Assembly (NCBI GenBank): GCA_018644745.1
Contig: JABGPX010000864.1
Span: 1-5,098, forward strand
From: Spirochaetales bacterium
GTDB lineage: Bacteria; Spirochaetota; Spirochaetia; ARS1246
Length of the DNA stretch: 5,098 nt
Reading direction: 5' to 3'
Shown here: positions 1,235 through 4,989 of the stretch, piece by piece
How positions within the stretch are numbered: the first letter of the stretch is position 1
How the letters are laid out: each line of letters begins with the position of its first letter
Notes under the pieces: generated by a model
Told to the model about the DNA's origin: nothing
Database searches by the model: none
The model's input: the letters and a program-made list of their open reading frames with translations, nothing else
Position numbers and translations under genes: made by a program

Positions 1235-2431
1235 TTAATTCTCCAGGATAGTTATCTCAACACGGCGGTTCTTGCGCATCTCCGTTTCGGTATTATTGCC
1301 GGCGATGGGCTCCCTAGCCCCCATTCCTTTCGTGGTAATCTGATCGACACTCCGCACCCCTAGAGAGTGAAGATAGTTTCCAACCGCCCGTGCCCGTTCC
1401 TCAGAAAGCACCTGTCGTCCGGCAGCGGTTCCTGCCAGAGCTGTATGTCCGACAATAAGAATATCCCGATCCGGATAACGGTTAAGAATTTCGCCAATCA
1501 CCTGCAGTTTCACCTTCTCTTCAGGTACAAGAACCGCGGAATCCGGCAGGAATTGGATACCTTCCAATGATACTGTAACTCCCTCGTCACTTATTCGCAC
1601 CTCCGTATCCCCTACATTCGATTCATCAAGCTGCTCCCGGATTTCCTCCGCAACTTCCTCCCGATTCAATTCAGTAGATTCGATGACCTTCGCGTCTGCC
1701 TCTCCCACATACTCGACAGTGTCGCCCGTAGAGAGATCGAAAACAAAGTCGAACTGCTCTCGATAAAAGTACGGCCGACCGTATTCGGCGTCCCAGTACA
1801 ATACCTGCGAAGAATAGCCGCTAATTCTGACCGGATACATCGCCGCCTCATACCGGACATCCGGCCGAAAAAAAACAGTGTAATCCACGGTTATTACATC
1901 CAAAATACGGCCATCCATTTCCTCCCGTCCGATCAGCTTGTAGCTGACCTGTATTGGAAAATGATATGCATCAGGTATACCGAAGTTGGATCTCAGGTCA
2001 TGCACCTCCTCACCCGGCGAAGACCAGGTATCTCCAGGCTGAAGATCTCTATCAGGAAACCATGGGACATGCCGAACGACGGGCATAAAATACGTATCGT
2101 CTATCTCATAGCCCCCTTGCGCGTCTCTCCAGAATTCAGAAAGGTATTCCTCGGCCCATTCATAAACCGATTCACTGCCGTAAGCACGTTCAGAAGTTTG
2201 AAATTGAGCAGAAAGGTAACCCGCGTCCCTATCGGTTCTCAAAACCTCAATGGATATTTTATTCAGGATATCAGCCCGATGCGAATACACACCGTTTACA
2301 TACACGACCTCATCGACCCGCGAGAGCACGCGATATCGGCTTCCCGCCTCATAGCTGAATTTGAACTCTTCTGCTGCGATAAACCCGACTGATGCAGACA
2401 GCAAAACCAGAAATAAGATAATTTTTCTCAT
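1235..2431 (-). CDS. Exported protein with C-terminal OmpA-like peptidoglycan-binding domain
   Basis: A 398-residue envelope protein predicted to anchor to peptidoglycan from the periplasm or outer membrane. Start ATG at 2431 is chosen because GGAGAAGG lies just upstream and residues 1-20 form a classic signal peptide (MRK, hydrophobic core, likely cleavage after about A19-A20). A longer in-frame ATG at 2488 would run through the promoter and bury the signal peptide. Residues 21 to about 245 are beta-rich, aromatic and acidic, and belong to no family I recognise; LQPGDTWSSPGEE is at 130-142. Residues about 250-270 are charged and probably helical. The OmpA-like domain covers about 276-397, with FLPDSA (294-299), GHTALAG (328-334), LSEERARAV (342-350), KGMGAREP (368-375) and NRRVEI (388-393). 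The aspartate of the usual GHTD motif is alanine (A331), while the ligand-binding arginine (R346) is kept. There is no lipobox and no evident eight-strand barrel. The gene is divergent from the pseudohelicase gene at 2615. Confidence 0.9.
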   Translation of the reverse strand: MRKIILFLVLLSASVGFIAAEEFKFSYEAGSRYRVLSRVDEVVYVNGVYSHRADILNKISIEVLRTDRDAGYLSAQFQTSERAYGSESVYEWAEEYLSEFWRDAQGGYEIDDTYFMPVVRHVPWFPDRDLQPGDTWSSPGEEVHDLRSNFGIPDAYHFPIQVSYKLIGREEMDGRILDVITVDYTVFFRPDVRYEAAMYPVRISGYSSQVLYWDAEYGRPYFYREQFDFVFDLSTGDTVEYVGEADAKVIESTELNREEVAEEIREQLDESNVGDTEVRISDEGVTVSLEGIQFLPDSAVLVPEEKVKLQVIGEILNRYPDRDILIVGHTALAGTAAGRQVLSEERARAVGNYLHSLGVRSVDQITTKGMGAREPIAGNNTETEMRKNRRVEITILEN

Positions 2432-2432
2432 A

Positions 2433-2440
2433 CCTTCTCC
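2433..2440 (-). promoter_or_regulatory. Ribosome binding site deciding the OmpA-like gene start
   Basis: On the minus strand GGAGAAGG precedes the ATG at 2431 with one intervening base (five between the GGAG core and the ATG). No comparable site precedes the longer in-frame ATG at 2488. With the signal peptide beginning exactly at 2431, this settles the start. Confidence 0.75.
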
Positions 2441-2476
2441 AGAATATAGAACTATTCTTAAGTATAGAGCGATTCT
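2441..2476. repeat. Imperfect 18-bp tandem duplication upstream of the OmpA-like gene
   Basis: Two adjacent 18-bp units (2441-2458 and 2459-2476) match at 13 of 18 positions. The shared core on the plus strand is TATAGA-N-C-N-ATTCT, at 2445-2458 and 2463-2476. Each minus-strand unit contains a -10-like hexamer (TATATT or TATACT), so the duplication may have doubled a -10 element or a regulator half-site. It lies between the promoter and the ribosome binding site. Confidence 0.6.
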
Positions 2477-2488
2477 CAATATGAACAA
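2461..2488 (-). promoter_or_regulatory. Candidate sigma-70-type promoter for the OmpA-like gene
   Basis: Minus strand: -10 TATACT (2461-2466, five of six consensus bases) and a weak -35 TTGTTC (2483-2488) with a 16-bp spacer. Transcription would start around 2454, leaving a leader of about 23 nt that contains the ribosome binding site. An alternative -35, TTGAGA (2476-2481), lacks a good -10 at standard spacing unless the second repeat unit supplies it. Confidence 0.45.
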
Positions 2489-2552
2489 TATCGGCAGTTA
2501 AGAGGGACTCGGCGGATAATTCTTCAGTTTTTCTGCGGGAAATAGGCGATAT

Positions 2553-2581
2553 TGACAAAGGCCCTTTGTATCTATATTTTT
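2553..2581 (+). promoter_or_regulatory. Strong sigma-70-type promoter for the pseudohelicase gene
   Basis: Perfect -35 TTGACA (2553-2558), 17-bp spacer, -10 TATTTT (2576-2581, four of six consensus bases); TATATT at 2574-2579 is an alternative with a 15-bp spacer. The expected transcription start near 2588 leaves a leader of about 27 nt before the GTG at 2615. The spacer is filled by a perfect palindrome, which suggests repression at this promoter. Confidence 0.65.
2556..2570. promoter_or_regulatory. Operator-like 15-bp palindrome in the promoter spacer
   Basis: ACAAAGGCCCTTTGT is a perfect dyad: 7-bp arms (2556-2562 and 2564-2570) around a central C at 2563. It overlaps the last three bases of the -35 and most of the spacer. 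Beyond a 3-bp mismatch on each side, ATA (2550-2552) and TAT (2574-2576) pair again, giving a 27-bp imperfect dyad. A homodimeric repressor bound here would block RNA polymerase. It is unlikely to be a terminator: it lies upstream of the predicted transcription start and no plus-strand gene precedes it. Confidence 0.5.
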
Positions 2582-2614: not shown

Positions 2615-3793
2615 GTGTTTCAAAAAACTGACCAATCAAACAAAGAGGAACTTTTACTCAACTATATTCGACATGCCGGGTATAAGCGGGCGACAACTCT
2701 GCAAAAAAAAGGTCTTCCTCATATCATGACCGGTCGAGACGTTATCTTTGAGACGGCAGCAGGTAACGGTAGAACAGGACTCTTCCTTATCTCAATCCTC
2801 ATTCAGATGAACCGGGGAACCGACGGGATAAAGGCGCTTATTCTCACGCAAGACAGCATTGAAGTCGGTAAAATCGTCCGACAATACAAGAGATTCGCAG
2901 CCAGGACCCATGACAAGCCGATCATTGCCGGCCTCGGAACGGATGAGAATATTCGTAAGGAATTGCGGCTGCTCGCGAATTCCCCGGATATTGTGGTGGG
3001 AACAACGGAGCGAATTATTGATCACATCCGACGTGAGAATATACGGCTGGAGGGTGTCCAGTCCGTTACCCTTGTGGCCCCCGAAGCAATTGATACCGCC
3101 GGATTCGATAAAGATATACTTTTTATTTATTCAAAGCTGACAGGACGTTTCCAGACGCAGGTATTCTGCTCGAACCTTGATAGAATTAGGACATTGGTTC
3201 CAATTCTGAAAAGGCCTTCTCAGATACTAGAAGCTGATTGGAACACGGCAGATAATAGCCCAAATGACGAAGTAAGAACCGGACGGAAGGAGAAACCCGA
3301 AATGAAGACGTCGAACAATAGCGACAATGCGCAGATGGCAGAATACGTCAAAAGCATAGTCAAAAAAATCAAGGAAGATGAAAACCCGGAGATTCTCAAC
3401 GACTATAGAAAGATATTCCGAAAAACAATCCCGCTCCATCTCCGCGCATATGTTACCGCTTACCTGCTAAAGGAATCTTTTGGCCCAGATCATCGAAGCC
3501 CGGGTCGGCAAAACTCAGGCGGTAGGGGTTCAAGCGGTAAGGGATCAAGCGGGTACAAAACAATTTTTGTTAGCGTCGGAAAGAATCGACGGGTATTTCC
3601 GAAGGATCTAACCGAATTGTTCAGCGACACCCTGGCAGTACCGGCCGAGCAAATTGGTGCTGTGAAAATCCTCGAGAGCTATTCTTTTATCGATATACCA
3701 GAGTCAAAGGCCCAACTTGCGATTGATCGCCTCAACGGATCGGATTTCCGAGGCCGCAAAATAACCGTGAACTTTGCCAGAAAAAAAACCTGA
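2615..3793 (+). CDS. Degenerate DEAD-box helicase-like protein with C-terminal DbpA-type RNA-binding domain
   Basis: A 392-residue protein, probably RNA- or ribosome-binding rather than an active helicase. GTG start at 2615 has a weak GGA (2604-2606) upstream and a good promoter at 2553; the next Met, residue 38, would lose the Q-motif region. Residues about 10-205 follow the layout of a DEAD-box first RecA lobe: Q-motif remnant GYKRATTLQ (22-30), motif I as GNGRTG (50-55, Walker lysine replaced by R53), motif Ia PTRELA as QDSIEV (79-84), TPGR as TTER (130-133), motif II DEAD as VAPE (154-157), motif III SAT as CSN (185-187). The second RecA lobe is absent. After a polar linker come a charged helical segment (about 240-288), a Gly/Ser/Arg linker (299-313), and a DbpA-type RNA-binding domain (about 314-390; IGAV at 347-350, RGRKITV at 379-385). 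In E. coli DbpA this domain binds hairpin 92 of 23S rRNA; the same target here is inference. Convergent with the membrane protein gene. Confidence 0.88.
   Translation: MFQKTDQSNKEELLLNYIRHAGYKRATTLQKKGLPHIMTGRDVIFETAAGNGRTGLFLISILIQMNRGTDGIKALILTQDSIEVGKIVRQYKRFAARTHDKPIIAGLGTDENIRKELRLLANSPDIVVGTTERIIDHIRRENIRLEGVQSVTLVAPEAIDTAGFDKDILFIYSKLTGRFQTQVFCSNLDRIRTLVPILKRPSQILEADWNTADNSPNDEVRTGRKEKPEMKTSNNSDNAQMAEYVKSIVKKIKEDENPEILNDYRKIFRKTIPLHLRAYVTAYLLKESFGPDHRSPGRQNSGGRGSSGKGSSGYKTIFVSVGKNRRVFPKDLTELFSDTLAVPAEQIGAVKILESYSFIDIPESKAQLAIDRLNGSDFRGRKITVNFARKKT
3287..3304 (+). promoter_or_regulatory. Internal ribosome binding site and in-frame ATG at a domain boundary
   Basis: AAGGAG (3287-3292) lies 9 nt before an in-frame ATG (3302-3304, Met230). 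This is a far better initiation signal than that of the full-length GTG start. Initiation here would give a 163-residue protein lacking the helicase-like lobe but keeping the helical segment, the Gly/Ser/Arg linker and the whole DbpA-type RNA-binding domain. The purine-rich codons for R-K-E-K could also produce the motif by chance. Confidence 0.45.
3521..3550 (+). repeat. Two-copy 15-bp tandem repeat in the linker of the pseudohelicase
   Basis: GGTAGGGGTTCAAGC (3521-3535) is followed directly by GGTAAGGGATCAAGC (3536-3550); 13 of 15 positions match. They encode the flexible G-R-G-S-S / G-K-G-S-S linker in front of the RNA-binding domain. Copy number may vary between strains without breaking the frame. 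Confidence 0.7.
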
Positions 3794-3829
3794 TCTCTCG
3801 TAAAACTTTATCTGATCCAGAGATTTAGG
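3781..3829 (-). terminator. Possible intrinsic terminator of the minus-strand membrane protein gene
   Basis: Read on the minus strand, arms at 3829-3819 and 3798-3789 pair as CCT/AGG plus ATCTCT/AGAGAT around a small internal bulge. A run of eight T (complement of 3781-3788) follows immediately. The loop is about 20 nt, large for an intrinsic terminator, and holds the stop codon. The T-run doubles as the final lysine codons of the opposing pseudohelicase gene. Plus-strand transcripts have no T-run after this structure. Confidence 0.35.
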
Positions 3830-4989
3830 AGTATCAGCGCACTGATCAAGTTCGGCAGATAACATAACAGAAAGGACAATCCCGCCAACACCTCGAACCG
3901 TCTTGCTTTTCTCTCGCAATTCAAGGAAATCTCCAGAGGGTTACCTGGTATCATGAGATTTTCCGCCATTGGATCAACCTGGCCGCCGCCCGTATCCTCG
4001 GGAGCAAAAACATAATATAACCGGGAGTCTTCTTGTGCATGCCTCATAACCGAAGCTGTTCGAATCTTCGGTTTTGACATCCCTGCTAACGCATGCTCGC
4101 GGCTAGTGAAAACCTCGAGGGAATACCGGCCGCCGTCGGGCATCAGCGCACTCATGTTGGACGCCGGCGCCTTATACCCGAAATAGCGCGTGGGAAGTTT
4201 TAAAATGTCTCGTTCGGCCCGGTTAAATCTAGCCCTCTTCCATAGATTTCGATACAGTAAGAAAAAAGGCAGCCCAATCGGCAGGAAAGGCAGAATCGGA
4301 GTCATGCTCAAGCCGATGGCAAAGAACGCGGGAATCCCGGTTGTACCGAGTCTAAGAGAATTGTACGCAAGGATAAGCAGCGCCAGGCTTCCGGCGATGA
4401 GCGAAATGGCGGTAAATCTATTCCAATATTCGTTTCGCTGGCGGCCGGCCCAAATAGATCTACGGAGAATAGTATCCTGCTCGCCGTCATAGATCACGAC
4501 GGTAAGGGGATGCTGTCGTGTCGAGCGGAAAACCCGCTGCCCGTGATGAAAAAAAAGCGCGCCGCTCAGGAACATTTTTGTTCCTTCGGGAAGAGAGAAG
4601 ATGCGATTCCATGGAATTCGCTGGGGTATTTCGTCGGGTATATTTTCTTCATTCCTCTCGACAACACCTTCATTCTCGGAATAAGAAAACGAAGGCAGGA
4701 GATACACCATTACGCCGGCGAGTTCCGCGGAAAGAGAGAAACTGCCGCCGCTTATCCAAATAGTGTTATTCCCCTGTATTGCTTCGAGACTCCCGAAAAA
4801 TCGGAACACTCCTGCGAACCCTTCGACTTCCTGCACTCCTCGCTGATATCTGACCCGCGGAAGCATTGATGATCCGGTAATACGGAGACGGAATTTCCGC
4901 CACTGGCTTCGAACAAAAAAAGCGCCTATCCCGGGGATGAGGAGAAAAAATGCCGTAAAGATAAGGAAGAGAACCGGGTATCTCCACAT
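3808..4989 (-). CDS. Unrecognised four-helix membrane protein
   Basis: A 393-residue protein I cannot place in a family. Predicted membrane helices lie at about 5-25, 193-211, 218-246 (long, possibly kinked or two short helices) and 367-388. Basic residues cluster after helix 1 (R27, R31, K32, R34, R36), after helix 3 (R247, K251, R252, R254) and before helix 4 (K361, R363, R364). By the positive-inside rule, two soluble regions (about 27-190 and 247-365) would be cytoplasmic. The first appears beta-rich and includes SLPEGTKMFLSGALF (132-146). No catalytic motif or signal peptide is evident. The ATG at 4989 has no good ribosome binding site. The same frame continues upstream through TAA (4993-4995) to an ATG at 5025 with AGGAG eight bases before it. 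Translation from 4989 may therefore depend on reinitiation after that stop, or the gene may be a slightly damaged version of a longer one. Confidence 0.85.
   Translation of the reverse strand: MWRYPVLFLIFTAFFLLIPGIGAFFVRSQWRKFRLRITGSSMLPRVRYQRGVQEVEGFAGVFRFFGSLEAIQGNNTIWISGGSFSLSAELAGVMVYLLPSFSYSENEGVVERNEENIPDEIPQRIPWNRIFSLPEGTKMFLSGALFFHHGQRVFRSTRQHPLTVVIYDGEQDTILRRSIWAGRQRNEYWNRFTAISLIAGSLALLILAYNSLRLGTTGIPAFFAIGLSMTPILPFLPIGLPFFLLYRNLWKRARFNRAERDILKLPTRYFGYKAPASNMSALMPDGGRYSLEVFTSREHALAGMSKPKIRTASVMRHAQEDSRLYYVFAPEDTGGGQVDPMAENLMIPGNPLEISLNCERKARRFEVLAGLSFLLCYLPNLISALILLNLWIR

Follow-up and report, generated by a model that had tools for sequence, protein, structure and literature searches.

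A gene on contig JABGPX010000864.1 of a Spirochaetales bacterium (assembly GCA_018644745.1; the whole stretch of 5,098 nucleotides analysed is referred to here as the window) encodes a protein made up of a DEAD-box RecA1 lobe without catalytic motifs, a linker and a DbpA-type RNA-binding domain (RBD). We consider it highly probable that this protein belongs to a family of spirochaete proteins that arose from DEAD-box helicases, lost the motor and now bind RNA independently of ATP. By descent (RecA1 fold and sequence homology) it is a member of the DEAD-box fold superfamily, and it shows what marks a pseudohelicase: the helicase fold is kept, the catalytic motifs are lost and the gene is under selection (the last seen in its relatives). 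That the gene product is a DEAD-box derivative kept without catalytic activity, its RNA-binding domain conserved, had been proposed from the nucleotide sequence alone (the sequence-only reading), and both the loss of motifs and the purifying selection found in relatives support it.

The features of the protein are collected in Table 1. The frame, described as intact in the sequence-only reading, is open over 392 amino acids (aa), and its GTG start at position 2615 aligns with the M-x-x-K start of many relatives. The second RecA lobe with motifs IV-VI, reported as missing, is indeed absent from the protein; a spacer and the helical linker follow after residue ~210. In the Gly/Ser-rich spacer the predicted local distance difference test score (pLDDT) of the structure model is <50 at residues 294-311, and the mean frequency of the top residue in the family alignment is 0.10. 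The PF03880 profile scores 64.1 bits on the protein, against a gathering cut-off of 25.6.

A protein search gave 410 relatives at E <= 1e-5, and the best 120 of these (the window protein among them) were aligned with DbpA of Escherichia coli in order to read the motifs. By length they comprise 44 short forms (361-412 aa) and 76 long forms (488-547 aa, with a degenerate second lobe); a third, mini form consists of linker and RBD only, with no lobe. The replacements pointed out earlier in the window protein (R53, VAPE and CSN, motif Ia being altered too) were confirmed, and the loss is family-wide. DE[AVC]D at motif II, PTREL at motif Ia, [ST]AT at motif III and the full motif I consensus A-x-T-G-x-G-K-T are missing from all 120 aligned sequences, that of the window protein among them; its motif I reads TAAGNGRT. 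A looser DE-x-[DH] at motif II was found in two of the 120 (both DEPD, with a ruined P-loop) and TPGR in one, while motifs V and VI are each intact in 0/76 long forms. The GK[TS] of motif I survives in 55/120 members (11/44 short and 44/76 long forms), positions 53-54 being K53-T54 in 51/120 and R53-T54 in 27/120, and the Q-motif glutamine is kept in 88% of the family alignment. A subgroup (L010, L013, L014 and L017) retains D-E in motif II (DEPA, DEPE) with a ruined P-loop, the reverse of many other members. In the long forms L195, L196 and L197 (frames of 537-547 aa) the eye can hardly make out the RecA lobes, whereas 'R-A-I-D-H-I-R-R-D-N-I' and the RBD are still present.

Canonical helicases from spirochaete genomes, put into one alignment with the family loci as a control, do retain their motifs, the exceptions being isolated substitutions, for instance CPGR in both L083 and L093, DEVD in L111 and TAT in one L142 frame. 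In a canonical set of 64 sequences, selected for DEAD or DEVD together with a match to motif VI (E. coli DbpA and 63 sequences from the phylum's genomes), conservation is 97-100% at the key positions in motifs I, Ia, GG, Ib and III. The 67 other sequences of >300 aa in the same alignment have no intermediate look but carry scattered remnants, GK[TS] and DE at motif II occurring together in 1/67. The remnants also include SAT at motif III in L032 and L033, two loci outside the 120, and TPGR in L050.

Selection was measured on 11 non-overlapping pairs of closely related short forms, the window (only about half identical to its nearest relatives) being in none of them. The pooled ratio of non-synonymous to synonymous change (pN/pS) was highest in the lobe (0.225), intermediate in the linker (0.107) and lowest in the RBD (0.061); the lobe was below 1 in all 11 pairs, and the RBD below the lobe in 11/11 (10/10 without one pair in which synonymous change was saturated in linker and RBD). 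Orthologues with intact motifs beside a neutrally drifting copy, the case that the sequence-only reading had named against itself, were not what we found: 0/120 are intact, and dN/dS of the lobe is <1 in every pair of relatives. The RBD, called well conserved before, has the lowest ratio, and the window carries the consensus residue at 31/33 RBD and 23/23 lobe positions conserved at >=85%, in a set gathered by similarity to the window itself. Judging from the alignment, constraint on the lobe has moved, the catalytic motifs being free and residues that vary among helicases nearly fixed. I135, D136 and R139 are identical in 120/120 family members, and the top residues in pseudo and canonical sequences compare as R139 at 100% versus N at 25%, K174 at 96% versus H at 16%, F170 at 85% versus K at 22%, and S173 at 81% versus S at 25%. 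This shift speaks for a new role of the lobe in the forms that retain it. The motif Ib helix contacts RNA in DEAD-box proteins.

On sequence homology, the family descends from two-lobed DeaD-type helicases carrying the linker domain. A profile comparison pairs it with intact DeaD helicases of spirochaetes across both lobes, the linker and the RBD (probability 100, E 4.2e-70), and the linker aligns with the post-core region of these helicases. Lobes were probably lost more than once from a two-lobed ancestor that was already dead, since the three forms share one neighbourhood in most of the environmental genomes fetched. At loci with enough flank, an OmpA-domain protein gene lies beside 36/39 short, 11/17 long and 9/11 mini members, and a gene for a protein of 393 aa in the window lies beside 31/36 short, 11/19 long and 13/13 mini members; they are within 1.5 kb of the family gene in 59/61 and 63/65 cases, respectively. 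One mini locus (L221) has all ten conserved neighbours tested, and one short-form locus (L222) has the OmpA gene as its sole conserved neighbour. A tree of 132 linker and RBD segments shows 15 changes of the form label (minimum 3), and its starred branches force at least four changes of short, six of mini and four of long. This tree (153 columns, quick method) cannot by itself separate gain from loss; its split from the canonical helicases has weak support (70), with the mini row L203 falling on the canonical side. We infer loss and not gain on two grounds: every long and short form examined is already dead, and intact two-lobed DeaD helicases align with the family over its full length.

The family is likely confined to spirochaetes: a scan of genome contigs gave 112 relatives, the best 80 of which all come from spirochaetes. 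A linker and RBD profile searched against 392 genomes of the phylum gave a match at E <= 1e-5 in 244, a count that mixes in the RBDs of intact helicases. Among the matches listed (150 genomes, E <= 5.7e-22) the open frames fall below 330 aa in 127, between 330 and 479 aa in 13 and at 480 aa or more in 10. A split into forms by these figures is approximate because the lengths run from stop to stop, and frames of 344 and 359 aa turned out on reading to be mini forms. No lobe was present in any of ten listed frames that were read. Since frames of <330 aa dominate and those ten are lobe-free, the mini form appears the commonest among the matches listed, and family members of some form occur in at least 150 of the 392 sampled genomes. 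In genome G081, for example, the mini form lies within a 234-aa frame. In several mini forms (L193, L208-L214) long Arg/Asp/Ser-rich or Glu-rich low-complexity stretches, possibly disordered tails, flank the RBD.

What such a protein would do can be sketched from these parts. The working unit would be the helical linker plus the RBD, of RNA recognition motif (RRM) type, binding single-stranded or loop RNA, probably rRNA or RNA associated with the ribosome. Where the lobe is retained, its motif Ib helix and the new basic residues (R133, R139, R140 and K174) may form a fixed second contact for RNA or for a partner protein, that is, a dispensable docking or RNA-contact surface. No ATP-driven cycle would take place, and the protein would be a passive RNA chaperone or placeholder, not a motor. 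Ribosome-related RNA is the target class that we would name first, although tentatively.

A more specific proposal, which we regard as plausible but fall short of favouring, is a factor for ribosome assembly that attaches to 23S rRNA, for instance around hairpin 92, but does not unwind it. Characterised helicases with a DbpA domain act in 50S maturation, according to the accessible part of PMC8190605, and the Treponema pallidum member carries the label 'rRNA processing', derived from a Gene Ontology term, in the portion available of PMC8525777. The [IVL]-G-x-[IV] loop of the RBD, whose backbone grips guanine in YxiN and Hera (PMC3695512, in part), is kept in 109/120 members. On the other hand, some proteins with this domain, such as CsdA, do not bind hairpin 92 (again from the accessible part of PMC8190605), and the RNA surface of the window protein differs from that of YxiN because Y356 stands where YxiN has Ala; F318 and F358 stand opposite Tyr. 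Hairpin 92 as the target, suggested in the sequence-only reading, therefore finds no support, the RBD departing from YxiN at an aromatic position.

The same reading had also considered a competitor or regulator of a DbpA helicase. Such a dominant-negative protein would occupy the RNA sites of an intact DbpA or DeaD helicase and tune its activity, and its linker and RNA-binding domains are indeed homologous to those of intact helicases. The check proposed at that time, a separate DbpA-like helicase in the same genome, was carried out in relatives and came out divided. The best PF00270 match is strong (151-183 bits) in 25/25 genomes of relatives, the best locus of each having a DEAD box, and an intact helicase with a DbpA domain accompanies the pseudo protein in 7/10 genomes examined. 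The three others have no confirmed partner: G001 and G024 show one DbpA-domain match each, and the second match of G005 lies in a frame of 249 aa whose identity as a helicase is unconfirmed. Lobe-free relatives are numerous, so mimicry of the helicase core is not a family-wide requirement, and because some of these sit at the same locus the lobe cannot be the essential competing part for the family. With this, and with the family aligning with DeaD-type helicases, competition with DbpA is not supported, and we consider this role unlikely.

We find it rather improbable that the protein works as a subunit in trans, its linker dimerising so that mixed dimers with an intact helicase, or dimers with itself, serve as a scaffold. 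The linker aligns with the post-core region of DeaD, where Hera has its dimerisation domain (PMC3695512, in the part accessible); against this, fold searches with the model of linker and RBD listed RRM-type matches and did not place the linker on the dimerisation domain of Hera or CshA, although the linker was barely tested by them and this excludes nothing. Residual ATPase activity through the altered motifs was rejected as very improbable: GK[TS] persists in 55/120 members and the Q-motif glutamine in most, but the window has R53, and A155 at the catalytic Glu, there is no second lobe to supply the arginines of motif VI, and the sequences combining GK[TS] with DE number a single one in 67. 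A decaying pseudogene, to which the vanished catalytic motifs and a lobe evolving faster than the RBD might point, was likewise rejected and has next to no chance of being right, being contradicted for the family by the open frame, purifying selection on the lobe in all pairs of relatives, the conserved promoter pattern and the spread over the phylum.

The preferred reading, an ATP-independent RNA-binding protein, bears on Treponema as well. In one genome the mini form matches proteins named 'DbpA RNA binding domain-containing protein [Treponema denticola]', near-identical proteins bear the source name 'uncharacterized protein TP_1029', and the profile of the window family finds mini genes in three genomes (E 5.6e-58 to 2.1e-52). 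By homology of linker and RBD, the window protein belongs to the TP_1029 sequence family, and the lobe-free form includes, on the same grounds, TP_1029 of Treponema. Unlike the window protein, the named Treponema proteins of this type measure 208-225 aa and have no RecA lobe, in a search that admitted 0.55-1.75 times the query length, so that longer ones were excluded. The neighbourhood of the T. denticola gene also differs from the conserved one of the window family: the three mini genes found with the profile, one of them taken as that of T. denticola, have no conserved neighbour within ~9 kb on either side. In the available part of PMC8525777, TPANIC_1029 appears in a table of the fifty most expressed protein genes of T. 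pallidum, with read counts that follow the direction seen for dnaA, a gene described there as higher in rabbits than in culture; in that of PMC5015957, TP1029 is an uncharacterised protein in a table of protein abundance. For TP_1029, a protein of the syphilis spirochaete that is highly transcribed but uncharacterised, our reading offers a concrete hypothesis open to test. A broader extension, which we regard as doubtful, would be a phylum-wide, abundant, ATP-independent RNA chaperone of spirochaetes that arose from a helicase stripped to its RBD several times independently. The functional counterparts proposed for such a chaperone are the general RNA-binding proteins Hfq, ProQ and the cold-shock proteins.

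Among known systems, the helicases of DeaD/CsdA and DbpA/YxiN type (PF00270, PF00271 and PF03880) share with the window protein the RecA1 fold, the order of lobe, linker and RBD, and the DbpA-type RRM. In contrast to them, the family has lost the catalytic motifs and would not be expected to act as a motor, and the second lobe is absent in the window protein and degenerate in its longer relatives. Pseudohelicases are already known. Utp25 of yeast (PMC9539457, in the part accessible) similarly keeps the DEAD-box fold and a function without catalytic motifs, but it is a eukaryotic protein of the small-subunit processome with two lobes and a disordered N terminus, and that part of the source describes no DbpA RBD and no reduction to one. 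PriA of Deinococcus radiodurans, likewise a bacterial helicase-family protein called a pseudohelicase (PMC4504706, accessible part), is a DNA replication-restart protein and not an RNA-binding DEAD-box derivative. In the open-licence literature, outside which most subscription papers fall, we found no functional study of the family and none describing it as dead helicases. It is an unstudied case of an enzyme turned binding protein whose dead-motor relatives are widespread in spirochaetes, and its natural reduction series (dead two-lobed, dead one-lobed and lobe-free) shows what is worth keeping of a DEAD-box helicase without its motor. A practical consequence is that 'DEAD/DEAH box helicase' labels in spirochaetes cover some proteins most likely unable to unwind RNA.

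Table 1. Features of the window and of the conserved downstream cluster in related loci
Feature	Position	Strand	Remarks
Single-lobe pseudo-DEAD/RNA-binding protein, coding sequence	2615..3793	+	392 aa, GTG start, stop counted in
RecA1-like pseudo-ATPase lobe	2624..3241	+	residues 4-209
Motif I remnant TAAGNGRT	2753..2776	+	R53 replaces the Walker lysine
Motif Ib and next helix GTTERIIDHIRREN	2999..3040	+	residues 129-142; most constrained part of the lobe
Motif II remnant VAPE	3074..3085	+	DEAD in active enzymes
Motif III remnant CSN	3167..3175	+	SAT in active enzymes
Helical linker domain, three helices	3317..3484	+	residues 235-290; structure model; present in all three forms
Low-complexity Gly/Ser-rich spacer	3485..3553	+	residues 291-313
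DbpA-type RNA-binding domain (RRM fold)	3554..3784	+	residues 314-390
Sigma-70-type promoter-like site TTGACA-17-TATTTT	2552..2580	+	10/12 consensus matches; predicted from consensus and conservation
OmpA-domain protein gene	1235-2488	-	divergent from the pseudohelicase gene; cluster in 61/81 loci compared, window included
393-aa protein gene	3808-4989	-	convergent neighbour; cluster in 65/81 loci compared, window included
Downstream cluster	L002:5599-13583 and L004:11885-12349	opposite to family gene

The good promoter claimed in the sequence-only reading is matched by a promoter-like site between the OmpA gene and the pseudohelicase gene, with a pattern that is conserved upstream of relatives. 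The block TTGACAAAG is identical in 6/6 aligned upstream regions, and TTGACA..TA...T occurs near the start in 34/41 short, 14/18 long and 4/14 mini forms versus 183/7,900 random windows (related rows are not independent, and the pattern is weak in the mini forms). The stretch contains 4 promoter-like sites against 0.8 expected. Rfam gave no match at gathering score in the window, and no significant RNA fold was found around the stop codon (z -0.20).

The 393-aa neighbour has no Pfam or NCBIfam match and represents an unnamed, conserved spirochaete family. Further downstream lies a conserved cluster of genes for DksA-type zinc finger, Smr, BatD/TPR, VWA, DUF58 and AAA lid proteins; we take the AAA lid to be of MoxR type and the whole to be presumably a Bat-type operon.
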